A stretch of 29,482 bases of DNA from the IMG/VR virus record IMGVR_UViG_3300030118_001887, positions 1-29,482 of that record; one strand, 5' to 3'. Below, piece by piece: positions 13,341 through 24,474 of this stretch. The notes beneath the pieces were generated by a model that was given only the letters and a program-made list of their open reading frames with translations, was not told the DNA's origin and made no database searches. The DNA comes from a virus. Within the stretch, counting starts at the first letter, position 1, and every line of letters begins with the position of its first letter. The position numbers and the translations under genes were made by a program.

Positions 13341-14243
13341 TTATTTGATTTTTTCGCTATCGTCAACACGTTTTAAAGACTGTAATTCATCTAAGAAACG
13401 ACCACAATAAGAGTGCTCTCCAACATGTGTTATATAGTCAGACACATAAGCAAATACTTCACCACCCATATCTGTCCATCTTTGACAAAAACCAAAATCT
13501 TCACCATAATATCTTTTAGTTTTTGAGTCATGTAGAGTATCAAATAAATTATAAAAATTAGGTTTCTTTTCTTCTTTTCCATTTATCATAGTTGGTTGAT
13601 ATATTTCTAGTTCTGGATGTTTTTCTATCATCTTTGTAAGAACATGTCTTTTTATTAACATACATCCTGTAGGAACATGAGTTGCTTCCATAAGACCATT
13701 GTCTACTGTTATGTTATTTTTATCTTTTACTTTTAAAGGAAACATATATCCAGACTTTACAACATCACCTTTTTTTCTAATCATTTCATGTTTTTCTGTT
13801 AGTGTTCTCCATATTTTATTTTCATCAATTGTCTTCATTGGATATGGACATGCTATTACATCTTTATCTGTTTCAATCATTTTAATAATTGTTTTATATT
13901 CAAAATCAATATCTGAATCTATAAACAATAGATATTCATATTTGTGTTCATGACTAATAAAATCCGCTACACATAGGTTTCTACCTTGTGTAACTAATGA
14001 TGATTTCAATAATGTAAAACTAACTAATATATTATTTTGTAAACATTGTTGTTGAAACTTTAATACAGATTGAGTGTAGTGCATTGATACTTCAGAGTGA
14101 CATGGTGTGCATACCATTATTTTATATTTAGGTTTACTGTCTAAATTTATTTCAGTAACAACACTTCCTGTTTTTACAGTTTGATAAGTATCTTTATTTG
14201 ATTCTTCTTTTTTATCAAACCATATCGGTTCATTGTTTTGCAT
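13341..14243 (-). CDS. Glycosyltransferase, GT-A fold with DSD motif
   Basis: About 300 aa from the ATG at 14243 (MQNNEPIWFD), chosen because AAGGAG lies 6 bases upstream; a longer frame to 14276 would overlap the neighbour further. The core reads YKIMVCTPCHSEVSMHYTQS, then SSLVTQGRNLCVADFI and YEYLLFIDSDIDF. The RNxxVxxF and FIDSDIxF elements are those of GT-A transferases of the GT2/Anp1-like kind, where the DxD-type motif (D109-S-D111) binds metal and nucleotide sugar. It ends with charged residues and has no membrane segment, so it should be cytosolic. It overlaps the GT4-type gene upstream by 14 bases; the two probably act on the same glycan. Target (host surface glycan, virion protein or modified DNA base) is not readable. 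Confidence 0.78.
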   Translation of the reverse strand: MQNNEPIWFDKKEESNKDTYQTVKTGSVVTEINLDSKPKYKIMVCTPCHSEVSMHYTQSVLKFQQQCLQNNILVSFTLLKSSLVTQGRNLCVADFISHEHKYEYLLFIDSDIDFEYKTIIKMIETDKDVIACPYPMKTIDENKIWRTLTEKHEMIRKKGDVVKSGYMFPLKVKDKNNITVDNGLMEATHVPTGCMLIKRHVLTKMIEKHPELEIYQPTMINGKEEKKPNFYNLFDTLHDSKTKRYYGEDFGFCQRWTDMGGEVFAYVSDYITHVGEHSYCGRFLDELQSLKRVDDSEKIK

Positions 14244-15177
14244 CAATTGCTCCTTGTAAAAATCGTGTCCAGGCAAGACCTTGTTTGTTCCAGTTATAAT
14301 ATTTATTTGTATATTTAATTTGAAATTTTAAATGTTCATTTACTTCCTCACTATTCAATGATTCTGCAGCTGCATCTATAGCCTTAGCAAATTTATTGGA
14401 AAGTATTCTAAGATTATCTGTGTAAGGAATATAGATAGGAAACTCTGCACCTGTTTCAAACAATGCACCAAGATTTGTTGTTATAGAATACAAACCTGCA
14501 GCCATACATTCTAGTAAAGATATACACGATGTTTCTTCAAATGTACTAGGATATACATACATTCTATAATCTTTTAGATGTTCTCTTATATATTCATTTG
14601 GTTTGTATCCAATATAATTTACATTCGGTATTGCATCTGCTTGTTCGTAAAGTGTTTGATAATATCTATCATTCTGTTCGTAAAAATCTTTTCCATATAC
14701 TTCTGTTGATGAATATACATCTAGTGTAATCAAAGGATTTTTTACTAACTGCATTGCACCTAATAAAACATTTAACCCTCTCCATGGCGTGTTCTGATGT
14801 ATTATTTTAATTGCTTCTCCTTTTTTATATGTTGTTGCTACAGGTTCTATTTTTTCTACACCATTTTTTATAACAACACATTTTTCTGTAGGTAATTTAA
14901 AATACGTTCTAAATTTTTCATATGTCCAATGACTGTTAAATACATACCAATCATACTTGTGATGATTAGATTTATCTTGAAACCATGGTGCTAAATTTGG
15001 TTGATCATAAGAATTTTTTTGCCAAAGTATATTTACCTTAGTTGGATGCAATGGAATCTTTTCAGGTATTGATGTGCATATCTCTACTTGATTTAATACT
15101 GCAGGATCTACATGCTTACGTAAAAATTCAAATTGTAATTCTGTGCCACCTTTAGGTGTTTGATTTCTTATTATCAT
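14230..15177 (-). CDS. Glycosyltransferase family 4-like (GT-B)
   Basis: 315 aa. The N-terminal loop RNQTPKGGTELQFEFL contains the GGTE pattern common in GT4-type enzymes. KNGVE (about 104-108) marks the domain junction. The C-terminal half has TLDVYSS and, at 209-229, YPSTFEETSCISLLECMAAG, with an EX7E arrangement (E215/E223) that binds the donor nucleotide sugar in retaining GT-B enzymes. A cytosolic sugar transferase using an NDP-sugar is the expected activity; acceptor unknown. It overlaps the 62-aa gene upstream by 26 bases and the second glycosyltransferase downstream by 14 bases, so the pair is co-translated within the virion operon. Confidence 0.85.
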   Translation of the reverse strand: MIIRNQTPKGGTELQFEFLRKHVDPAVLNQVEICTSIPEKIPLHPTKVNILWQKNSYDQPNLAPWFQDKSNHHKYDWYVFNSHWTYEKFRTYFKLPTEKCVVIKNGVEKIEPVATTYKKGEAIKIIHQNTPWRGLNVLLGAMQLVKNPLITLDVYSSTEVYGKDFYEQNDRYYQTLYEQADAIPNVNYIGYKPNEYIREHLKDYRMYVYPSTFEETSCISLLECMAAGLYSITTNLGALFETGAEFPIYIPYTDNLRILSNKFAKAIDAAAESLNSEEVNEHLKFQIKYTNKYYNWNKQGLAWTRFLQGAIDAKQ

Positions 15178-15844: not shown

Positions 15845-16851
15845 TAACTTAACATTAATTCTTCTAATAATTCTTGTTCTCTTTTTCTCTTTTGCTCTTC
15901 TTTATCAAGAGCTTCATCAATCTTTAAATTTGGATTTAATAATTTTTCTAAAAGAGTTCTATTATCTATAACTGGTTTAGCGTCTGCCATAGCGCCTGTA
16001 AAAAATTTATCTTGTGATTGAGGCGTGTCTAACACTTCTATAAAACCTGTGTTTTCTGGTCCTACTCTGTTCCTAATTGATCCCAGTCCTTCATTAACTC
16101 CTGCCATATCATATGTTGAACTTGGCACAGTAAAATAATTAACTCCCGCCCTATCATATGTTGAACTTGGCACAGTAAAATAATTAACTCCCGCCCTATC
16201 ATATGATGAACCTGGTACAGTGGTGTCACCAAAATTTAAACTATTTATTCCTTCGTTTTGTGGAACGAAATCTGGAGCACCTTCTTCTAGATTACTAAAA
16301 TCAAGATCTGGTCTTAGATCAGCTGCAGTATTTGGAGTGATACCCATTTGTGATTTTAAAGCAGCAAGTCTTTCATCTAAATCAGTTTGACTATAATCTC
16401 CATCAGAATATTTTCTAGCTAAAGTATTTTCTATAGTTTTAATTCTATTAAGATTAATTCTGTTTTGTCTAGCTTGTTCGTATTCTGCTTGGGTCTCATA
16501 TCCTGTTAATCTTTTTCTTGTTTCTGGATTGTTTAACATTTGAAAATAAGAAAGAGGATTTAAAAAACTAAGTAATTTTTTTAAAGGATTTTGTTTAGAT
16601 CCACCTGTACTTACAACATCGTCTACAGTTTTCTTTTTCTTTGTAGGAGGTACAAAAGGAGTATCGTCATTTCGATTATCACGAACTGTAGGTGGACGAT
16701 TTAAAGTAGTTAGAGGTGTATCTCCAAGTGTAGCACTACCTGCACCAACATTTACTGTTTGTTGTAAATCAGCTGGCACTCCAAATTGTGACGCATCAGC
16801 TCCACCTTTAAGTCCTACACGTCCTTGTTTATATAAACCTTTATCTATCAT
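15844..16851 (-). CDS. Repeat-containing structural-type protein, unknown function
   Basis: 335 aa, acidic and polar, no enzyme motif. The N-terminus is MIDKGLYKQGRVGLKGGADA; a Pro/Lys-rich linker (PFVPPTKKKKTVDDVVS) precedes a helical part. Residues about 200-250 hold a 15-residue tandem repeat (core SSTYDRAGVNYFTVP), two copies identical at DNA level and flanked by diverged copies. The C-terminus is a charged helix (DEALDKEEQKRKREQELLEE). It is overlapped by one base at both ends by neighbours, just downstream of the gp10-like gene, and is probably a virion or assembly protein. The repeat may be a flexible linker or binding element. Confidence 0.5.
   Translation of the reverse strand: MIDKGLYKQGRVGLKGGADASQFGVPADLQQTVNVGAGSATLGDTPLTTLNRPPTVRDNRNDDTPFVPPTKKKKTVDDVVSTGGSKQNPLKKLLSFLNPLSYFQMLNNPETRKRLTGYETQAEYEQARQNRINLNRIKTIENTLARKYSDGDYSQTDLDERLAALKSQMGITPNTAADLRPDLDFSNLEEGAPDFVPQNEGINSLNFGDTTVPGSSYDRAGVNYFTVPSSTYDRAGVNYFTVPSSTYDMAGVNEGLGSIRNRVGPENTGFIEVLDTPQSQDKFFTGAMADAKPVIDNRTLLEKLLNPNLKIDEALDKEEQKRKREQELLEELMLS
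16107..16241. repeat. 45-bp in-frame tandem repeat, two identical units plus a diverged third
   Basis: Unit 1 at 16107-16151 and unit 2 at 16152-16196 are identical over all 45 bases. Unit 3 at 16197-16241 matches for about 15-25 bases with substitutions and then diverges. Each unit encodes the 15 residues SSTYDRAGVNYFTVP (cyclic permutation). Perfect identity implies recent duplication or ongoing copy-number change. Confidence 0.9.
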
Positions 16852-18821
16852 TATCTTCTACCATCCGGTTGTGCATCAAGTCTTAGAGTTCCGTATCTCC
16901 AAGTTTCACCTGTGCCATCGTTTTCTATTCTTAATGCTACAAGTCTTCCTCTTGCACGCGTATCTATTTTATCAGTAGAAGACGTGATTGTAAAGGGTCC
17001 TAGTGGTGAACTAGATGCTGTGTTGTTTGGATAATCATTTAGTAATAGTGTGATCTTAGTGTTACCTGTTTGTACAGCAAAATCAGGTATAAATCTTTTA
17101 ACAGACATAAAGAACTCACCATCTCCTTTGTAGTTTACCATTCCTGTAGCCTGACCCAATGCGCTTCTACTAGATGTAATATCGTAGTCACCAGATTTAA
17201 TAAATGCTGCAATCGCAGTTGTGCCTGAACTATTTACTTGATCAGTTCCTACTTCATGAGCATAGTAAGTTGATGCTCCAAATCTATTTGTAATACCTTG
17301 AATATCAGGAAATACTGGTGTTGCAGTTTTATTATATTCAGTTGCATATGGCACATCGAATACACCTGTATCCACATAACTTGTTCTTGCTAATGATCCT
17401 GTAGTCCAAACTTGTTCTCCATAATTATATGTAACAACTCTATCTATTTGCTCTGATCCTGATTTTGGATAGAACCAGTTTACTTCATTAAATAATGTAT
17501 TATGTTCTGCATAGACAATGTCAGTTGCATTAAAATTAATTCCTAAATTATCTGCATCAGTGCTGAATACAAAGTCTTCTACCAAACAAGGTAATGATTT
17601 AACTGTACCATCAAATGCAAAAAATCCACCTTCGCCTGACATCCAGAATACAATACCATCAGAATAACTTAAAGCATTCTGACCAATCAATCCACAGTTT
17701 GTACCAACTTGTTTTACAGAAAAAGTAAATGGTGGACCAACAAATTGAATTACATAGGCAGAGCTATCTGTTAAAACTAAAGTATAATCTTTACCGGATA
17801 CAGCACCTACAATTTTATTACCTTTATCTAATCTAAAACTACCTGCAGTGTTGGTGGCTGTCGGCGTGTATGTATTTAAATCTTCTTGATTTGAAAATCT
17901 TATAAACAATGGATCAACAGTTGTAGAATCACCAATAGTTGTTTCAGTTCCAAAATGAAACAAATGCCTATCTCTGTCTGACACTTGTGTTAATCTAGAT
18001 GACGTAGGATTGTTTGACGTAGAAAAATTTGTAGTTGTTGTTGACGCCCTAATTGACCGCGCGTTTGATGCACCTGCATTCCACGTAAATGTTTTACCAC
18101 CGGTGATAGTTGCAACTAATACTTCTCCAAAATTATCAAGACTCCAGAGGCCTGGTTCTAGAATTACGTCACTAGTTGTTCTTTCAGTTCCCCACGTCGA
18201 TGTGCTCCAAGTGTCTGTGCCCCAACCATAACCAGCTGTTTGAAATGTAGGACCAACTGATTCATAAGGATTAACTGTTGCAGAACCTGCAGTTGACATT
18301 CCTGATCCAGATTCTACTGACGCCATTGTAATTGTAAAACTGTTTGTGCTAGCTGTTACAACTTCATAAGGTGTGCCTGTGAAATCAGCTGTTGCATATC
18401 CTGTAGCACCACCTCCAGGTAGTGACACAGAAGTAAACGTAAAATATCGTCCAGCCGATAAACCATGAGATGTTTTATTTACAGTTACAGTTGCTGATCC
18501 ATTTGAAGATGTAAATGTGAATCCAGTTATAGCTGTAGCTAGTGGAGATATATCATAAAAGTCATTTCCATAATATAAGAATAACCCTTGTGATGTTCCT
18601 ATCGCTGCATATTTTTCACCTGCAATACTTGTCCAGCTATGCTGGGCACGTGCTGCTCCAGGTAATGTTAAACTAGCTGCAGTAAGTTGATTCCAACCAC
18701 CTATCTTTTCTGGTAATCCATATCTAAATCTAACAAAATCACCATCTACCCATTGAGACTCAGCTCCTGAGTCTGTAATCATCTTGTTAAAACCAGGCTT
18801 GAAATTTAATTTTTGTAGCAT
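16851..18821 (-). CDS. gp10-like tail / DNA-stabilisation protein, 656 aa
   Basis: Beta-rich 656-aa protein. The N-terminus MLQKLNFKPGFNKMITDSG and GDFVRFRYGLPEKIGGW are the strongest marks: I recognise the VRFRxGLPEKIGGW element from large phage structural proteins annotated as P22 gp10-like DNA-stabilising/tail proteins. Successive short blades (GTSQGLFLYYGNDFYDIS; KIVGAVSGKDYTLVLTDSS; IVFWMSGEGGFFAFDG) suggest a beta-propeller-like core, and an inserted Ser/Thr-rich segment (about 100-185) may be an added domain. Together with the gp4-like protein at 27637-28359 this supports a short, P22-type tail. It is longer than P22 gp10 (about 470 aa), so the orthology is not firm. Its start is 21 bases from the divergent cassette. 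Confidence 0.6.
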   Translation of the reverse strand: MLQKLNFKPGFNKMITDSGAESQWVDGDFVRFRYGLPEKIGGWNQLTAASLTLPGAARAQHSWTSIAGEKYAAIGTSQGLFLYYGNDFYDISPLATAITGFTFTSSNGSATVTVNKTSHGLSAGRYFTFTSVSLPGGGATGYATADFTGTPYEVVTASTNSFTITMASVESGSGMSTAGSATVNPYESVGPTFQTAGYGWGTDTWSTSTWGTERTTSDVILEPGLWSLDNFGEVLVATITGGKTFTWNAGASNARSIRASTTTTNFSTSNNPTSSRLTQVSDRDRHLFHFGTETTIGDSTTVDPLFIRFSNQEDLNTYTPTATNTAGSFRLDKGNKIVGAVSGKDYTLVLTDSSAYVIQFVGPPFTFSVKQVGTNCGLIGQNALSYSDGIVFWMSGEGGFFAFDGTVKSLPCLVEDFVFSTDADNLGINFNATDIVYAEHNTLFNEVNWFYPKSGSEQIDRVVTYNYGEQVWTTGSLARTSYVDTGVFDVPYATEYNKTATPVFPDIQGITNRFGASTYYAHEVGTDQVNSSGTTAIAAFIKSGDYDITSSRSALGQATGMVNYKGDGEFFMSVKRFIPDFAVQTGNTKITLLLNDYPNNTASSSPLGPFTITSSTDKIDTRARGRLVALRIENDGTGETWRYGTLRLDAQPDGRR

Positions 18822-18832
18822 ATAAAGTGTTA

Positions 18833-18838
18833 TATAAT
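18833..18838 (+). promoter_or_regulatory. TATAAT -10 box in front of the plus-strand enzyme cassette
   Basis: A perfect TATAAT in the 21-base divergent gap, with only a weak -35 17 bases upstream (TTTTTG). Predicted initiation (about 18845) falls at or just after the first ATG (18843). The message may therefore be leaderless, or translation may begin at the second ATG (18852). The surrounding TTATATAA is palindromic and could also seed minus-strand transcription of the gp10-like gene. Confidence 0.4.
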
Positions 18839-18842
18839 ACTT

Positions 18843-19172
18843 ATGAAAATAATGAAAGCGAGAATAATCTGGTTTCCCGAACGTCTATCCTACATAAATT
18901 TTGATACTTTACAAGATAAAATAGAGTGGGATCAAAATCACCTTAATACTGTCAGAGAGTTTATGAAAAAAGATGGCCTTATATTTCCTGCTGTTTTTAA
19001 AGACAAAGAAATACATTGTGGTCACTACAGATTTAAAATAGCAAAAGAAATGGGATATGATGGCATTGATGCTTATAAAGTAGATACATTTAAAGAGGCT
19101 TTAGATTTGACTAATTTTACTGAATTGTGTTATAAGCATTATAAAGAATTAAAAGAAAAAAAGTATGTCTAA
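18843..19172 (+). CDS. ParB/Srx-like fold protein (ParB N-terminal-type domain)
   Basis: 109 aa. The segment QNHLNTVREFMKKDGLIFPA (31-50) followed by HCGHYRFKIAKEMGYDGIDA (58-77) fits the ParB/sulfiredoxin-like nucleotide-binding fold: a helix, an xGLIxPxxV strand, then GHxR (G60-H61-Y62-R63) and AKxxGxxxI. No HTH DNA-binding domain follows, so it is a stand-alone domain. Such proteins can be CTPases, nucleases or partners of modification enzymes. First gene of the plus-strand cassette; its end overlaps the next gene by 8 bases. Neither possible start (18843 or 18852) has a clear ribosome site. The biochemical role here is unknown. Confidence 0.65.
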   Translation: MKIMKARIIWFPERLSYINFDTLQDKIEWDQNHLNTVREFMKKDGLIFPAVFKDKEIHCGHYRFKIAKEMGYDGIDAYKVDTFKEALDLTNFTELCYKHYKELKEKKYV

Positions 19173-19725
19173 TCAATTAATGATCGATGGTATAATTCAA
19201 ATTAAAAATATCTTTAATGATAATATTTCTAAATTAGTTAAAGAATTTGCAGATGAAAAAGCTAATAGAAAGATGGAGACCATAGGTAGAAAAGATTTTT
19301 TATCTCAAAGAAATGTTTGGGGCTATCATTTATTAAGGCATACTCCAACAGATATTTGGATGTATAATTTAATTCGTAAAGAAATAACTAGACTCTATCT
19401 TTACTATAAAGCAAAGTTTCCTCAAACAAATAACATATCAATACAACAAATAGATATTTTAAAATATACAAAAGGTGGTTTTTATAAAGCACATACAGAT
19501 GTTGGTTCAGTAATTCCAAGACAAGTCAGTATCATTATTAATTTAAATGATAACTTTGAAGGAGGTGAAGTATTTTTTTGGGACCAAAAACAAAAAAATA
19601 TTATTAAAGAAATAAAGCCTTTTAAAAATAGTGTAACATTTTTTCCAAGTAATTTTTTATATCCACATTCCGTAGAACCTGTAAAGAAAGGAGTTAGATA
19701 TAGTATCGTATCATGGCTAAATTAG
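19165..19725 (+). CDS. 2-oxoglutarate/Fe(II) dioxygenase, prolyl-4-hydroxylase-like
   Basis: 186 aa, a complete double-stranded beta-helix dioxygenase. Metal ligands: HTD at H110/D112 and distal H168 (FLYPHSVEPV); the 2-oxoglutarate-binding arginine is R178 in GVRYSIVSWL. The connecting strands VSIIINLNDNFEGGEVFF are typical of the prolyl-hydroxylase-like branch, which hydroxylates protein side chains or small molecules using O2 and 2-oxoglutarate, releasing succinate and CO2. No signal peptide: cytosolic. It overlaps the ParB-like gene by 8 bases and the next oxygenase by 13. Substrate unknown; a virion or host protein is as likely as any. Confidence 0.88.
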   Translation: MSNQLMIDGIIQIKNIFNDNISKLVKEFADEKANRKMETIGRKDFLSQRNVWGYHLLRHTPTDIWMYNLIRKEITRLYLYYKAKFPQTNNISIQQIDILKYTKGGFYKAHTDVGSVIPRQVSIIINLNDNFEGGEVFFWDQKQKNIIKEIKPFKNSVTFFPSNFLYPHSVEPVKKGVRYSIVSWLN

Positions 19726-20327
19726 ATTGGACTAAACAAGGTTATAAAATAATAAATAATTTTTTTACAAAAAAAGAATTAGAAATATTACAAGAATATT
19801 GTTTTAAACAATTAGAAAGTGGTGCTGGCGCTCAGTATGACGAACAGTCAGGAACGGGTGCTGCAGCATGGTATAAAGATACGATGGCTACTACTTTCTT
19901 ATCTTTAAAAAGACCATTAGTAGAAAAAGCTTCTGGATATGCATTGTTAGAAACTTACACATATTGGAGATATTATTGTTTTGGTAGCAAATTAACAAAA
20001 CATACAGACAGACCTGCTTGTCAAATAAGTGTAACAGCAAACATAAAAAGTTATGATGAGTGGCCCATAGTCGTTGAAGGTAATTCAATAAATTTAAAAG
20101 AAGGACAGGCTATATTATATTATGGCTGCCTTGCAAAACATTGGAGACCAGGTATATACAAAGGAGACGGTATGGCACAAGTATTTTTTCATTACGTTGA
20201 TGCAAATGGACCTTTTTATCATCACGAGCAAGATAAGTATTTACTTTCAACTGGTAACATAGCTTCAGAAAACGATGAAAAAATTGTTGAAGAAATGACA
20301 AAAAAATTTTATGAAGGAAGGAAATAA
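19713..20327 (+). CDS. Second 2-oxoglutarate/Fe(II) oxygenase-type protein
   Basis: 204 aa, clearly different from the gene before it. Visible: YYCFGSKLTKHTDRPACQIS with the HTD pair H97/D99, a beta-core SVTANIKSYDEWPIVVEG, LKEGQAILYYGCLAKHWRPG with the distal ligand H143, then MAQVFFHYVDANGP. This is the HxD...H pattern of 2OG-Fe(II) enzymes of a group common in T4-like cyanophages and other marine phages. The usual 2OG-binding arginine is not obvious (R145 is a candidate), so cosubstrate use is less certain than for the first enzyme. It is co-translated with the neighbours; function unknown. Confidence 0.8.
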   Translation: MAKLDWTKQGYKIINNFFTKKELEILQEYCFKQLESGAGAQYDEQSGTGAAAWYKDTMATTFLSLKRPLVEKASGYALLETYTYWRYYCFGSKLTKHTDRPACQISVTANIKSYDEWPIVVEGNSINLKEGQAILYYGCLAKHWRPGIYKGDGMAQVFFHYVDANGPFYHHEQDKYLLSTGNIASENDEKIVEEMTKKFYEGRK

Positions 20328-20330
20328 CAT

Positions 20331-20966
20331 ATGTACGAGTCATTAAAAGAAGCAGTTAAATTTCACGCAGCTAATCAAGAAAATTGGTGTGGAGAAGCTT
20401 TAGCTGAATATAAACACGAAGTTTTTAAAATTATAAAAGAACAGAATATTAAATCTGTTTTAGATTATGGATGTGGTAAAGCTAAATTTCACAGCATACT
20501 TTTTAATAATCCAAAAGTTCCAGGTTCTCCAACTGTAAGTATAGTTGGATATGATCCAGCGTTTGGACAATACTCTCAAAAACCAACTGGTGATTTTGAT
20601 TTAATTTTATGTGTAGATGTTATGGAACATGTTCAAGAAGATAAAGTAGATGAAGTCTTATCTGATATATTTAACAGTTACAGTGGTCATGTGTTTATGA
20701 GTATTACTTGTTATGAAGCAACTCAAGTTTTATTAAATGGTAAAAACGCTCACTACACTATTAAAGAACCTGATTGGTGGAAATCAAAATTACAAACATA
20801 TACTGATAGATGCACTGTTATTTTTCAAACCAAACCAGATAGATCTAAGATTACTATTAATAAAGAAGAATGGAAACCTAACAAAAAAACTTTAGATAAA
20901 TTAAAAGTTAATCATAAAACATTAGATGAATCTCAAAAAGAGAAAGCAAAACTTTTAAATGACTGA
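20331..20966 (+). CDS. Class I SAM-dependent methyltransferase
   Basis: 211 aa. Motif I VLDYGCGKAKF (43-53) binds S-adenosylmethionine, VGYDPAFG (72-79) gives the acidic ribose ligand D75, and DLILCVDVMEHV (90-101) is the motif IV/post-IV region typical of small-molecule or protein/lipid methyltransferases rather than the DPPY/NPPF of DNA N-methyltransferases or the PC loop of cytosine-C5 enzymes. The C-terminal part is lysine-rich. The start is well supported by AAGGAAGGAAATAAC just before the ATG. It lies between the second and third oxygenases and overlaps the third by 8 bases, suggesting joint action on one substrate (inference). Confidence 0.85.
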   Translation: MYESLKEAVKFHAANQENWCGEALAEYKHEVFKIIKEQNIKSVLDYGCGKAKFHSILFNNPKVPGSPTVSIVGYDPAFGQYSQKPTGDFDLILCVDVMEHVQEDKVDEVLSDIFNSYSGHVFMSITCYEATQVLLNGKNAHYTIKEPDWWKSKLQTYTDRCTVIFQTKPDRSKITINKEEWKPNKKTLDKLKVNHKTLDESQKEKAKLLND

Positions 20967-21561
20967 TTCAAAAAAATGTAGCATAGAAAATTTTGTAGGT
21001 GTATATGATGGGTATATACCAGAGCATGACTGTGATAAAGCAATACAATATTTTGAAAACGAAGCTGAATTAAAAAGGACTATAACCAGAATGGGTTCTG
21101 AAAAATCATCTCCGTATATTAAAAAAGATCAACAATTATTTTGCAATGCAGAAAATGTTATAGGTTGGTGGAAAGAATTAAGACCTTTCTTTTTTAATTT
21201 TGATATATGTCTAAAACATTATGTAGAACATAATGGAATACAAGGATTTTATGAACAAGGTTTACAGTATACTACTTTTAAAATACAAAAAACTTTACCC
21301 ACTGAAGGGTATCACATATGGCATATAGAACATGGCCCTGGATTTGATAATGAGCCTAGAGCTTTCGTTTATTCTGTTTATTTAAATGACGTTGAAGAAG
21401 GTGGAGAAACAGAATTTTTACATTTTTCAAAAAGAGTAAAACCTAAAAAAGGACGTGTTGTTATATGGCCTGCTGGATTTCCATATGTGCATAGAGGAAA
21501 TCCTCCTTTATCTGGAGAAAAATATATTTTAACTTCTTGGATGATGTCTAGAGAATATTAA
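20959..21561 (+). CDS. Third 2-oxoglutarate/Fe(II) oxygenase-type protein (HxE variant)
   Basis: 200 aa. EGYHIWHIEHGPGFDNEPRA holds the first ligands as H122-I-E124, with glutamate in place of the usual aspartate. Then FVYSVYLNDVEEGGETEFL is the family's strand pair with the GGE(T)EF signature; VVIWPAGFPYVHRGNPP contains the distal H178; and GEKYILTSWMM has lysine (K188) where arginine often binds 2-oxoglutarate. The fold is therefore clear but the active site is a variant. This WHxE/GEKYxLTSW form recurs in marine-phage oxygenases. It ends the plus-strand cassette and overlaps the convergent gene by 4 bases, with no terminator between. Confidence 0.82.
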   Translation: MTDSKKCSIENFVGVYDGYIPEHDCDKAIQYFENEAELKRTITRMGSEKSSPYIKKDQQLFCNAENVIGWWKELRPFFFNFDICLKHYVEHNGIQGFYEQGLQYTTFKIQKTLPTEGYHIWHIEHGPGFDNEPRAFVYSVYLNDVEEGGETEFLHFSKRVKPKKGRVVIWPAGFPYVHRGNPPLSGEKYILTSWMMSREY

Positions 21562-21980
21562 AGCGATGAATAAGAAGTAGGTCTTGCACCTAATCTTGAA
21601 ATTTTTTCCGCTTCTGTTTCTTCTCTAAAAACTGGTGGATCTTCACCCTCTGGATCTTCTACTGAAACATTATTGTTGTCCCAATCAGATTGAATTTTTG
21701 CTAACCATGCAGTATCAAATCTTGTTATGAATTCATTAAAACTTCCTAAAACAGAAGCATCATAACTTGAATGCTCACTTCCATCGTTATGTTCTACTTG
21801 GTCATTATCTAAATTATCATCAGTAAATTGTATTGCGTGAATATTTGAAAATTTTGATTGATTCCAAAAAGCATCGTCATCAACAACGATTGATTTTGGT
21901 TCGGTAGGTGAGGCATCAGATGTTTTTTTGTAGATCATTTTATCTTCAAAAACAACTGTCCAAATTCCATGTTTAGCCAT
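21558..21980 (-). CDS. Tail-fibre-associated small protein, unknown function
   Basis: 140 aa, strongly acidic, no membrane segment. The beta-rich start WTVVFEDKMIYKK is followed by AFWNQSKFSNIHAIQFTDD and FNEFITRFDTAWLAKIQSDW; the end EETEAEKISRLGARPTSYSS has the E-E-K-x-x-R-LGxRPxxYSxx pattern I associate with tail-fibre-associated or assembly proteins. AAGGAG sits close before the ATG. As the last gene after the three collar proteins it could be a fibre chaperone or a fibre-tip component; neither can be shown here. Confidence 0.5.
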   Translation of the reverse strand: MAKHGIWTVVFEDKMIYKKTSDASPTEPKSIVVDDDAFWNQSKFSNIHAIQFTDDNLDNDQVEHNDGSEHSSYDASVLGSFNEFITRFDTAWLAKIQSDWDNNNVSVEDPEGEDPPVFREETEAEKISRLGARPTSYSSL

Positions 21981-21989
21981 AATTTCTCC

Positions 21990-22574
21990 TTAAGTTTTAA
22001 TTATATATATCACAGTTAAATAAGGTTGCAACACAGAATTAGAGTCCCCTGTAAAATTAGCAGACAAATTGTGAGAATGTCCACCTCCGCCTCCAGCGTT
22101 ACTAATATTTCCAGTTGTACCATTAGCCACAATACTTTGGTTTGTACCATCAGGTCTTCCACCCGGTTTACTTGCTTGAGCTATTGATGGACTTTGTGGG
22201 TGCCTGTGAGAAGCTATTTGTGGTGTAGATAAAGTATGACTGGCTAAGTTACCTGCTATGTTACCTGTTCCCTGAACAGTATTAGCTCCTCCTGTGGATG
22301 CTAAAGCTTTATTTGGTGATTTTCCAATTGGAACGTCATCTTGTAAATCAGGGACATTAAAAGTTGTAGATCCGTTTCCTGCGCCATATGTTGTACCAAT
22401 TACTGCAAATAAATCTGAATAAGTTGATCTTGAAACAGCTGCGCCGTTGCATTCTAAATATCCTGATGGAATAGCATCATCTGCCCAAGGCATAATTAAA
22501 CCTGTATTTACAAGTTGTAAATCAGCTAAATTTCCACCGTCAAAATTATATTTAGTTGCTTCGTAATTTGCCAT
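21990..22574 (-). CDS. Tail collar-domain protein, copy 3 of 3 in transcription order
   Basis: 194 aa, one of three tandem paralogues. The N-terminal ~120 residues contain the phage tail-collar signature (PWADDAIPSGYLECNGAAVS, RSTYSDLFAVIGTTYGAGNG, STTFNVPDLQDDV). Then come IASHRHPQ, a unique variable stretch, and a conserved end GGGHSHNLSANFTGDSN and LQPYLTVIYIIKT. The HRH and HSH motifs resemble the metal-binding HxH elements of T4-type fibre tips. It probably sits at the distal tail or fibre and contacts the host. No ribosome site is evident before its ATG, unlike the other two copies, so translation may be coupled to the gene before. Confidence 0.85.
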   Translation of the reverse strand: MANYEATKYNFDGGNLADLQLVNTGLIMPWADDAIPSGYLECNGAAVSRSTYSDLFAVIGTTYGAGNGSTTFNVPDLQDDVPIGKSPNKALASTGGANTVQGTGNIAGNLASHTLSTPQIASHRHPQSPSIAQASKPGGRPDGTNQSIVANGTTGNISNAGGGGGHSHNLSANFTGDSNSVLQPYLTVIYIIKT

Positions 22575-22578
22575 AGTT

Positions 22579-23172
22579 TTAAGTTTTAATTATATATATT
22601 ACTGTTAAATAAGGTTGAAGAACTGAAGTTGCATCTCCCGAAAAGTTAGCAGAAGCACTGTGATCGTGAGAACCACCTCCTCCTTGATATCCTGTATATC
22701 CTGGTCCACCCCTTGCAAAACTTGGAGAACAGTTATTTCTAGTTGGTTGTGATCCAAAATAAGGATAATAAGTTCCACCTAATCCTGGTCCTGGAGGGTG
22801 ATCGTGAACTCCAATTTGTGAAGTTGATAAAGTTGTATTAGCTGAGTTACCAGATACGTTTCCAGTTTGTGCGACCGTATCTGCACCACCAGTAGATGCT
22901 AAAGCTTTACTTGGTGATTTTCCTACTACTACGTTATTTTGTAAATCAGGTAAATCAAATGTAGTTGATCCGTTACCAGCCCCATACGTTGTCCCAATAA
23001 TAGCGAACAAAGCAGAGTAAGTTGATCTTGAAACTGCTGAACCATTACATTCTAAAAAACCAGATGGCACACTTCCGTCACTCCAAGGAATAACTGAACC
23101 TGTAGAAACACCTACTAATCCTGTTATGCTTGCTCCTGAAAAGTCGTATTTAGTTGCTTCATAATTTGCCAT
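22579..23172 (-). CDS. Tail collar-domain protein, copy 2 of 3
   Basis: 197 aa. Same build as its neighbours: MANYEATKYDFSG start, collar core PSGFLECNGSAVSRSTYSAL and GNGSTTFDLPDLQNNV, variable central segment after GVHDHPPGP (rich in Gly, Tyr, Pro; GGTYYPYFGSQPTRNNC), and the conserved end GGGSHDHSASANFSGD then LQPYLTVIYIIKT. Histidine pairs HDH occur on both sides of the variable part. It differs from the other copies by point changes across the N-terminal part, so the duplication is not recent. AGGAAAAAA precedes the ATG. Likely a receptor-contacting or fibre-tip component. Confidence 0.85.
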   Translation of the reverse strand: MANYEATKYDFSGASITGLVGVSTGSVIPWSDGSVPSGFLECNGSAVSRSTYSALFAIIGTTYGAGNGSTTFDLPDLQNNVVVGKSPSKALASTGGADTVAQTGNVSGNSANTTLSTSQIGVHDHPPGPGLGGTYYPYFGSQPTRNNCSPSFARGGPGYTGYQGGGGSHDHSASANFSGDATSVLQPYLTVIYIIKT

Positions 23173-23181
23173 AATTTTTTC

Positions 23182-23769
23182 CTACGTTTTTATAATATAT
23201 AATAAAGTTAAGTACGGTTGTAAAACAGATGTTGAGTCTCCTGTAAAATTGGCACTCATTCCATGACTATGATTTGAGCCACCTGGACTATTTCCATAAT
23301 CTGCATTTGGTTGAGGATTAGCAGGACCTACTGCTCCTCCTGGAATGTTTCCTTGCACCGAACTAGGTGGAGTATTTTGAGCACCTGAAGTAGGGTGACT
23401 GTGAGAAGGCATCTCTGGTTCTGTCACAGTATGATTAGCTGAGTTACCGCTTACGTTTCCAGAAGATTGAACAGTGTTTGCACCACCTGTTGAAGCTAAA
23501 GCTTTGTTATTAGATTTGCTGACTGTAACGTCGTCTTGTAGGTCAGGTAAAGTAAAAGTTGTAGAACCATTTCCAGCACCATAAGTCGTTCCAATTACTG
23601 CAAATAAATCTGAGTAAGTTGATCTTGAGACAGCTGCACCGTTACATTCTAGAAAACCTGATGGCACTGAAGAATCAGTCCAAGGTATTATAAGACCAGT
23701 ATTGAGACCTTGTATTCCTGTGAGACTTTGACCATCAAAATCGTATCTAGTAGCTTCATAGTTAGCCAT
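23182..23769 (-). CDS. Tail collar-domain protein, copy 1 of 3
   Basis: 195 aa. MANYEATRYDFDGQSLTG start; collar core PSGFLECNGAAVSRSTYSDL and AGNGSTTFTLPDLQDD; SHSHP at the border, then a variable Pro/Gly/Asn-rich insert (PPSSVQGNIPGGAVGPANP), and the conserved end NHSHGMSANFTGDST and LQPYLTLLYIIKT. Its good ribosome site (AGGGAGAAATAATCC) makes it the best-initiated of the three. It follows directly on the fibre gene at 23773-24474, four bases apart, so fibre and collar proteins are co-expressed. Confidence 0.85.
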   Translation of the reverse strand: MANYEATRYDFDGQSLTGIQGLNTGLIIPWTDSSVPSGFLECNGAAVSRSTYSDLFAVIGTTYGAGNGSTTFTLPDLQDDVTVSKSNNKALASTGGANTVQSSGNVSGNSANHTVTEPEMPSHSHPTSGAQNTPPSSVQGNIPGGAVGPANPQPNADYGNSPGGSNHSHGMSANFTGDSTSVLQPYLTLLYIIKT

Positions 23770-23772
23770 GGA

Positions 23773-24474
23773 TTATTTCTCCCTATATGTCCAACCAGTA
23801 GTAGCGTCTCCTGAATAAACTAAGCTAAAACCAGCACCTTGTGTATTAACAACAAGGTCTGCTGCAGCGTTAGCAATGTTAGAACTATTTCTACCAACAG
23901 TTAGAGCGTTGGTATTAAAATCATATCCTTGGTCCATGAATGATACTTCATCTCCCGTAGCAGGTGAGGCTGGAAGCGTAATAGTTACTGCTCCACCACT
24001 TGTATTTACTAAACATTGTGCACCAGCTTGAACTGTTTCAGCTGCTGTAAATACTCTCCAATTTCTCTGCTCAGATAATTTTACAATATTTGTACCATCA
24101 GAATATAGTACATAATTATTTCCTTCACATAGAAGAACACCTGTTCCTCCTGCTGTTTTAAAAGTTAAAGTATAACCTCCATGGTTACATGCATTTTGAA
24201 CATGATAAACTTTTTCAATTCCATCTGGAATACTTACTGTTCTATTTGCTGCTAAAGTTCCTGTTAATTTAATAACATCATTTTTACCATTGGATACTGC
24301 ACCATTAGTAAATGTTAATGCTCTGTTAGCGTTAGTTAAGTTGAAAGTTGTAAAACCACCGATTGCTTGTTCTAAAATTAATAAGTTTGTATTTGTAATT
24401 TGTCCCCAAGTTCCTGAGTTTTCACCAGTTGCTTGGACTGTTAATTTTAAATTAGCTGATGTTGAGTTTGCCAT
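23773..24474 (-). CDS. Phage tail fibre-type protein
   Basis: 233 aa, beta-rich, Asn/Thr/Gly-rich. The N-terminus STSANLKLTVQATGENSGTW then GQITNTNLLILEQAIGG is a start I know from marine-phage tail fibres and likely forms the attachment segment. The remainder alternates short strands (ALTFTNGAVSNGKNDVIKLT; GGYTLTFKTAGGTGVLLCEG) and ends GAGFSLVYSGDATTGWTYRE, a common fibre-end motif. It lies between the terminator-bounded 536-aa gene and the three collar genes, consistent with a fibre shaft carrying the collar-domain tips. AATAAGGAATTTAAATT precedes the ATG. Confidence 0.75.
   Translation of the reverse strand: MANSTSANLKLTVQATGENSGTWGQITNTNLLILEQAIGGFTTFNLTNANRALTFTNGAVSNGKNDVIKLTGTLAANRTVSIPDGIEKVYHVQNACNHGGYTLTFKTAGGTGVLLCEGNNYVLYSDGTNIVKLSEQRNWRVFTAAETVQAGAQCLVNTSGGAVTITLPASPATGDEVSFMDQGYDFNTNALTVGRNSSNIANAAADLVVNTQGAGFSLVYSGDATTGWTYREK

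Follow-up and report, generated by a model that had tools for sequence, protein, structure and literature searches.

Anatomy of the locus

We characterized a cassette of five genes, here called A to E, in the IMG/VR virus record IMGVR_UViG_3300030118_001887; the analysis covered all 29,482 bp of that record, which are referred to below as the window. By sequence, the window probably belongs to an HTVC023P-type Pelagibacter podovirus, the best named relatives of its 'stabilization protein' gene (16851-18821) being those of HTVC027P (73%), HTVC023P (59%) and phage 023Pt_psg01 (48%). Pelagibacter hosts are the commonest bacteria of the ocean. An earlier note, made from the sequence alone, had described five overlapping or abutting plus-strand genes among minus-strand virion genes, and we found all five open reading frames (ORFs) at 18843-21561, with minus-strand virion genes as neighbours on either side. 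They encode proteins of 109 (A), 186 (B), 204 (C), 211 (D) and 200 (E) residues and are tightly packed, with overlaps of 8 nt between A and B, 13 nt between B and C and 8 nt between D and E, a gap of 3 nt between C and D, and an overlap of 4 nt between the 3′ end of E and the convergent minus-strand gene f. The cassette fills a position, termed the slot, between the conserved 'stabilization protein' gene and the tail-collar genes, and the features of the region are as follows.

16851..18821, minus strand: gene for the conserved 'stabilization protein', which borders the slot on the left (more distant tblastn relatives carry the annotation 'phage stabilization protein')
18822..18842, plus strand: divergent intergenic region of 21 bp between the stabilization gene and the cassette, carrying TATAAT at 18833-18838
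18843..19172, plus strand: A, small stand-alone ParB/Srx-like protein with a weak ParB_N score, module partner of D
19165..19725, plus strand: B, 2-oxoglutarate (2OG)-Fe(II) oxygenase (PF13640, 9e-19), module partner of C
19713..20327, plus strand: C, 2OG-Fe(II)-type oxygenase by triad and AlphaFold2 model, labelled 'ferrochelatase' (PHROG 2954)
20331..20966, plus strand: D, class I S-adenosylmethionine (SAM) methyltransferase (Methyltransf_23, 5e-9), module partner of A
20959..21561, plus strand: E, core 2OG-Fe(II) oxygenase, prolyl-4-hydroxylase-like (PF13640, 1.2e-10)
21558..21980, minus strand: f, 140-residue protein gene convergent with E, with a near-invariant C-terminal RLG[A/P]RPTSYSS
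21990..23769, minus strand: three tandem tail-collar paralogues, adhesin-like (PF07484 Collar, 4e-23 to 4e-22)
23773..24474, minus strand: conserved tail gene that bounds the exchange block on the right (PHROG 31104, 1e-52)

Enzymes of the cassette

The three oxygenase-type proteins, mutually divergent as the earlier note had stated, all retain an intact metal-binding triad. From these triads B, C and E are placed in the 2OG-Fe(II) oxygenase superfamily, with the fold taken from Pfam for B and E and from a structure model for C, and all three would presumably be catalytically active. B and E exceed the Pfam cut-off for 2OG-FeII_Oxy_3 (PF13640). In B, the triad H110/D112/H168 is kept in 97-100% of 101 homologues and R178, ten residues past the distal histidine, where a basic residue would bind 2OG, in 99% of them; the closest PDB match of B by sequence is prolyl 3-hydroxylase 1 (2e-4), and B also weakly matches the cyclophane-peptide oxygenase YhhC (1.7e-4). 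The triad of E, H122xE124...H178, is invariant in 154 homologues, a lysine is its candidate 2OG-binding residue, and residues 98-196 match the bacterial prolyl 4-hydroxylases 3itq and 5hv0 of the PDB (2e-7). C has no Pfam match and is assigned to PHROG 2954 ('ferrochelatase') at 6e-42. Its triad, H97xD99...H143, is invariant in 69 homologues, R145 being the only basic residue near the distal histidine. An AlphaFold2 model of C built from 57 homologues reached a predicted local distance difference test (pLDDT) score of 93.8, and its 50 best PDB matches in Foldseek were all 2OG-type oxygenases with prolyl hydroxylases on top, including PKHD-type, hypoxia-sensing PHD and Pseudomonas prolyl hydroxylases, prolyl-4-hydroxylase, PiuC, small-molecule oxygenases and the collagen prolyl hydroxylase of a chlorella virus. 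This model predicts for C a prolyl-hydroxylase-like oxygenase fold of the double-stranded beta-helix (DSBH) type. The concern that the second and third oxygenases might lack metal binding was thus not borne out, given the invariant triads and the DSBH-type fold of the C model.

'Ferrochelatase' was rejected as an identity for C, with no ferrochelatase match in Pfam or NCBIfam, none among the 50 best fold matches, and the oxygenase triad intact. More broadly, the labels 'ferrochelatase' and 'DNA endonuclease (V)' of PHROG 2954, 3531, 274 and 2297 were seen to span 2OG-oxygenase-like proteins; metagenome statistics published with these labels carry the same error.

The class I methyltransferase announced by the earlier note was confirmed in D, which has the glycine-rich SAM motif LDYGCG, passes the Methyltransf_23 cut-off (5.1e-9; 36.5 bits vs. 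27) and also matches PHROG 24759 (2.5e-26). The stand-alone ParB/Srx-fold protein that the same note had seen in A held up only in part. A ParB-like similarity exists, but at an E-value of 0.007 and 16.8 bits it is weak and falls under the curated ParB_N cut-off of 26.3. The AlphaFold2 model of A (pLDDT 61) was too poor for use. A has a motif G60-H-Y-R63-F-K-x-A67 in which G60, R63 and A67 are invariant. A scan of GTDB for a cellular home of A returned only two contigs, both of one Maricaulis metagenome-assembled genome, one of which, L242, coincides in length and match coordinates with the viral contig L225; no cellular source was found.

Oxygenases next to a methyltransferase could also serve to modify or repair phage DNA or nucleotides, as 2OG enzymes are able to do, and a DNA-repair role was once suggested for the 2OG genes of cyanophages (cited in Sullivan et al., 2010; PMC3037559). 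However, B, C and E are closest to protein hydroxylases rather than to TET/JBP or AlkB enzymes, the genes are grouped with tail genes, and the five ORFs have no restriction-evasion family match, and we regard this explanation as extremely unlikely. A PADLOC search of the cassette ORFs for defence functions gave generic 2OG and methyltransferase matches only, with no defence-system architecture, and tRNA and Rfam scans found nothing specific.

Modularity of the slot in relatives

Viral contigs were scanned with the stabilization protein, E and A, which yielded 237 loci, most of them on metagenomic contigs; 180 were non-redundant and 135 had both slot flanks. Since loci seeded with E or A skew gene frequencies, unbiased figures were taken from the stabilization-seeded subset (n = 51). 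The slot recurs in more than 100 relatives, far beyond chance. The cassette lies on the reverse strand in 129 of the 135 complete cases, where it spans 0.6-5.3 kb and holds 1-10 genes, 1-8 of them of oxygenase type. Its contents range from E alone through B+C+E and A+D+E to many other mixtures, with 86 gene orders among the 135 complete cassettes. E is present in 50 of the 51 unbiased reverse-strand cassettes and forms the sole cargo of 8 complete ones. A and D are jointly present or jointly absent in all 51 stabilization-seeded cassettes; in the larger set they occur together in 45 and D occurs without A in 1, and every D-seeded locus that reaches the stabilization gene has A (66/66). C directly follows B in 47 of the 49 cassettes that hold both, and 42 of 45 cassettes begin with A. 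These mixed contents and the diversity of orders indicate that the operon of the window consists of three separable and independently gained modules, namely the near-universal E, B+C and A+D, rather than one fixed pathway.

The earlier note had instead proposed a dedicated pathway of sequential modification acquired as a unit. The exact A-B-C-D-E order does exist, but in four complete cassettes only, the window included, and a five-step pathway is largely refuted by the independence of the modules, the many orders and the cassettes with E alone, leaving it scarcely credible. The same note had expected that genes found singly and scattered in related phages would tell against a pathway; they do occur singly, but they are not scattered and are always found in this slot.

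The slot accommodates much further cargo. Additional oxygenase families are numerous, most with a conserved HxD/E...H or HxH...H, and they are accompanied by a carbamoyltransferase (Carbam_trans_C, 6e-56), a flavin halogenase (Trp_halogenase, 1.6e-90), more methyltransferases, a JmjC/cupin-like family and a family resembling sulfotransferases that scores at the cut-off (2e-4). The tryptophan-halogenase-family gene (L022, 4771-6189; L097, 3173-4594) adjoins sulfotransferase-like and oxygenase genes, and in one cargo family, ox9, DUF6817 (HD-like) and a 2OG oxygenase domain are fused (L076, L117).

At the head of the cassette, the TATAAT box from which the earlier note had the genes led is real and kept in relatives, occurring in 102 of 146 where ~22 would be expected by shuffling. 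In the window, however, it sits 4 nt before the ATG of A, and a sigma-70 scan of the window gave no sigma-70-like site above shuffles. The leader, made up of TATAAT and a downstream AATGAAAG element (18820-18860 in the window, and in relatives), is common to cassettes that begin with different genes. Where A comes first, the leader extends over the initial codons of A, and the true start of A is therefore uncertain.

Linkage of the cassette with f and the tail collars

To the right of the slot lies f, accompanied by one to three tail-collar genes. Of the 58 loci that were fully seen, 48 have E together with f and the other 10 lack the two, neither being found alone, and the collar agrees with the E/f state in all loci but L079, which has divergent collars without f and E. 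Every one of the 80 f-seeded loci has E, and on the stabilization-protein tree E and f switch state together in 3 of 3 independent pairs. Distances among E (n = 93), C (38) and D (34) follow those of the collars (partial Mantel r 0.44, 0.56 and 0.69, respectively; p 0.001) and do not follow those of the stabilization gene. D tracks the collars, ~2 kb off, despite lying 344 bp from the stabilization gene; A, at 22 bp from the stabilization gene, follows that gene (r 0.46). The two slot flanks are concordant (rank r 0.62 between stabilization and tail gene distances), and no significant link was found between the number of collar genes and the number of cassette genes (rho 0.24, p 0.12). The collar paralogues of the window differ in central His-rich/Gly-rich loops, and relatives have one or three copies.

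Individual pairs of loci point to exchange in blocks. L011 and L054 have stabilization proteins of 78% identity, the same cassette order, and E and f proteins of 96% and 97% identity. Their DNA identity is 69-85% from the stabilization gene to its start region, 80-98% (mostly above 88%) across the cassette, three collars and f, and falls to ~77% in the tail gene, a profile which indicates that the cassette moved together with the collars and f in a single exchange. In L065 and L216, by comparison, the stabilization proteins are 99% identical, the cassettes read 'E' vs. 'A D B C ox22 E ox9', and the E proteins share 66% identity. L184 and L175 are 94% identical through A and D and divergent afterwards, so breakpoints can also lie past A+D. 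With its variable island, receptor-binding genes, conserved structural flanks and block exchange, the slot has the properties by which a hypervariable host-recognition cluster is recognized.

It could be argued that the slot is simply a permissive insertion hotspot, where unrelated auxiliary metabolic genes (2OG, nitrogen, iron and other) gather between divergent and convergent units and where linkage to the collars reflects neighbourhood. Published readings of such genes as auxiliary metabolic genes agree with this (PMC9599517; PMC3037559), as does the loose tie of accessory content to collar and f sequence. On the other hand, the cargo consists overwhelmingly of one enzyme superfamily together with group-transfer and halogenating enzymes rather than random genes, E is almost never absent, and D follows the remote collars instead of the adjacent stabilization gene. 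We consider a mere hotspot distinctly unlikely.

The f protein and its C-terminal peptide

No family match was obtained for f in profile searches. Its end, RLG[A/P]RPTSYSS, is the best-conserved nine-residue stretch of the protein (mean 0.93 vs. 0.73 overall), with an invariant proline, and is preceded by a linker of mostly 15 residues that ranges from 0 to 67. The C-terminal codons vary synonymously, which indicates that the constraint acts at the protein level, and a RLGARPTSYSS-type motif was not found in other ORFs of the loci. Prolyl hydroxylases target short motifs in flexible regions, and the f tail is therefore an obvious candidate substrate for E. The peptide could equally serve docking or assembly.

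A constant C-terminal peptide behind a variable linker might also mark f as a ribosomal precursor whose peptide is matured by variable enzymes into a secreted or virion-borne modified product. The weak match of B to YhhC and the resemblance of the cargo to natural-product tailoring enzymes, halogenase included, would fit such a role. Nevertheless, f is a protein of 140 residues whose large N-terminal part is conserved, the slot showed neither a protease nor a transporter, and the core of most peptide natural products varies instead of remaining constant, which together make a precursor role very unlikely.

Related clusters in other phages

The isolate HTVC027P has a three-gene cassette in the same slot and on the same reversed strand, consisting of gp74, gp73 (the E counterpart, 63%) and gp72, and both gp74 and gp72 match a 2OG-oxygenase family too; its f counterpart is gp71 and its collar protein gp70. 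In HTVC023P and 023Pt_psg01, oxygenase genes likewise lie close to tail genes, but they share the strand of the virion genes. In the pelagimyophage Mosig, the stretch between tail-fibre and neck genes holds a C homologue (35% identity) along with four 2OG genes and one 'endonuclease V' gene. In HTVC008M, a distant homologue of A is found among baseplate genes together with another ParB-like gene. The two small ParB-like proteins flank a methyltransferase and a 2OG gene that carries the annotation endonuclease V (L247, 7998-9723), and an outer-membrane porin gene comes next. E-like genes were found in 443 phage records, mostly of cyanophages, and stand beside gp3 in the two examined.

Two glycosyltransferase-like genes (GT2 and GT1) lie on the minus strand in the virion region of the window (13341-15177). 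The pair has counterparts in HTVC027P and HTVC023P, and of 52 loci examined, 29 have both genes and 14 have neither. Their products could act on hydroxylated residues.

Discussion

The slot is a hypervariable cargo bay, inside the receptor-binding (tail collar) module, for what we propose are small tailoring enzymes. E is its near-constant occupant, while B+C and A+D are optional, gained and lost like the other oxygenases, the methyl-, carbamoyl- and sulfotransferases and the halogenases. The most likely role of the cassette enzymes is post-translational modification of the phage's own adhesion apparatus, with E acting on f, perhaps at the proline of the C-terminal RPTSYSS, and/or on collar proteins, and the optional modules would add variable chemistry, such that each phage lineage would present a differently decorated tail tip. 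The general idea of a modification function, already voiced in the earlier note, is supported by our results. Whether the cassette is a tailoring module for the phage's own receptor-binding proteins we judge to be evenly balanced, and the similar clusters beside tail-fibre or baseplate genes in the unrelated pelagimyophages Mosig and HTVC008M count in its favour. More tentative is an elaborated form, which we think doubtful though conceivable, a combinatorial adhesin chemistry in which the constant E would read the constant C-terminal tag of f, a swappable set of enzymes for hydroxylation, methylation, carbamoylation, sulfation and halogenation would decorate the tail tip, and blocks would be swapped between backbones.

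Several points weigh against tailoring of the phage's own adhesins. The proposed substrate and the adaptive role are presumed, and the virion location of f is assumed solely from gene position. Physical linkage accounts for part of the association between E and f, and three independent pairs are too few to reach significance. B is only weakly correlated with the collars (r 0.17), and accessory gene content barely follows collar or f sequence (partial r ~0.1). Finally, contigs might be chimeric, with joins at the hypervariable island.

The main rival is modification of the host surface, whereby the cassette would alter glycans or outer-membrane proteins of SAR11, for example to exclude rival phages, and joint selection on the use and the masking of receptors would make it travel with the collars. 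Co-exchange with receptor-binding genes would be expected here too, carbamoyl-, sulfo- and glycosyltransferase-like cargo often acts on sugars, and the pelagimyophage host recognition cluster has been so read for its glycosyltransferases (PMC7029224). E, however, resembles protein prolyl hydroxylases and not lipid-A hydroxylases, and neither the strict pairing of E with f nor the invariant f C-terminus is predicted by a host-surface role. We therefore hold host-surface modification to be unlikely, if the strongest of the alternatives.

Parts of this picture have precedents. In HTVC023P-type phages, Wittmers et al. described eight types of 2OG gene, frequently close to a 'ferrochelatase' that was never without an adjoining oxygenase, and read them as auxiliary metabolic genes of host metabolism with a heme-enzyme partner (Wittmers et al., 2022; PMC9599517). 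The phage group is the same and the gene families are partly shared. In the present analysis, by contrast, the 'ferrochelatase' has the features of an oxygenase, and further elements are the slot, its modules, the linkage to f and the collars, and the halogenase, carbamoyl- and sulfotransferase cargo; the main text of that paper makes no mention of tail collars, halogenase, or carbamoyl- or sulfotransferases (PMC9599517). Sullivan et al. reported 2OG genes, a prnA halogenase and carbamoyltransferases as sporadic host-like genes of cyanomyoviruses, relating the 2OG genes to 2OG levels or DNA repair (Sullivan et al., 2010; PMC3037559). These are the same kinds of enzyme, and the E-like genes there adjoin the tail-completion gene gp3. 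The host recognition cluster of the T4-like pelagimyophages, hypervariable, 44.6 kb in mean length and discussed for glycosyltransferases and host O-chains, is likewise a variable island in the structural region that combines tail fibres with potentially surface-altering enzymes (PMC7029224). Unlike that cluster, the podovirus cassette is compact, on the reverse strand and dominated by oxygenases. A virus-encoded 2OG protein hydroxylase is also known in vCPH of Paramecium bursaria chlorella virus 1 (PDB 5c5t), which matches C in structure and E in sequence; vCPH differs in being the single gene of a eukaryotic algal virus, with collagen-like substrates and no adhesin-tied variable cassette. 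In a search covering few subscription journals, we found no paper linking phage 2OG enzymes to tail modification or tail-collar exchange, and the slot logic, the f/collar linkage and the relabelling of the 'ferrochelatase' appear new within the literature searched.

In current papers these genes and the 'ferrochelatases' figure as metabolic genes, and both the 2OG and the 'ferrochelatase' classes are enriched in seasonal phages (PMC11561400), a reading that changes if tail adhesins are the targets. If tail adhesins are indeed modified, the 'ferrochelatase' class would vanish as such, and a long-open question would become directly testable on cultured HTVC027P, with a named substrate candidate and peptide. 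The joint exchange of an enzyme set with adhesin genes suggests that these phages chemically customize the parts with which they bind their hosts.

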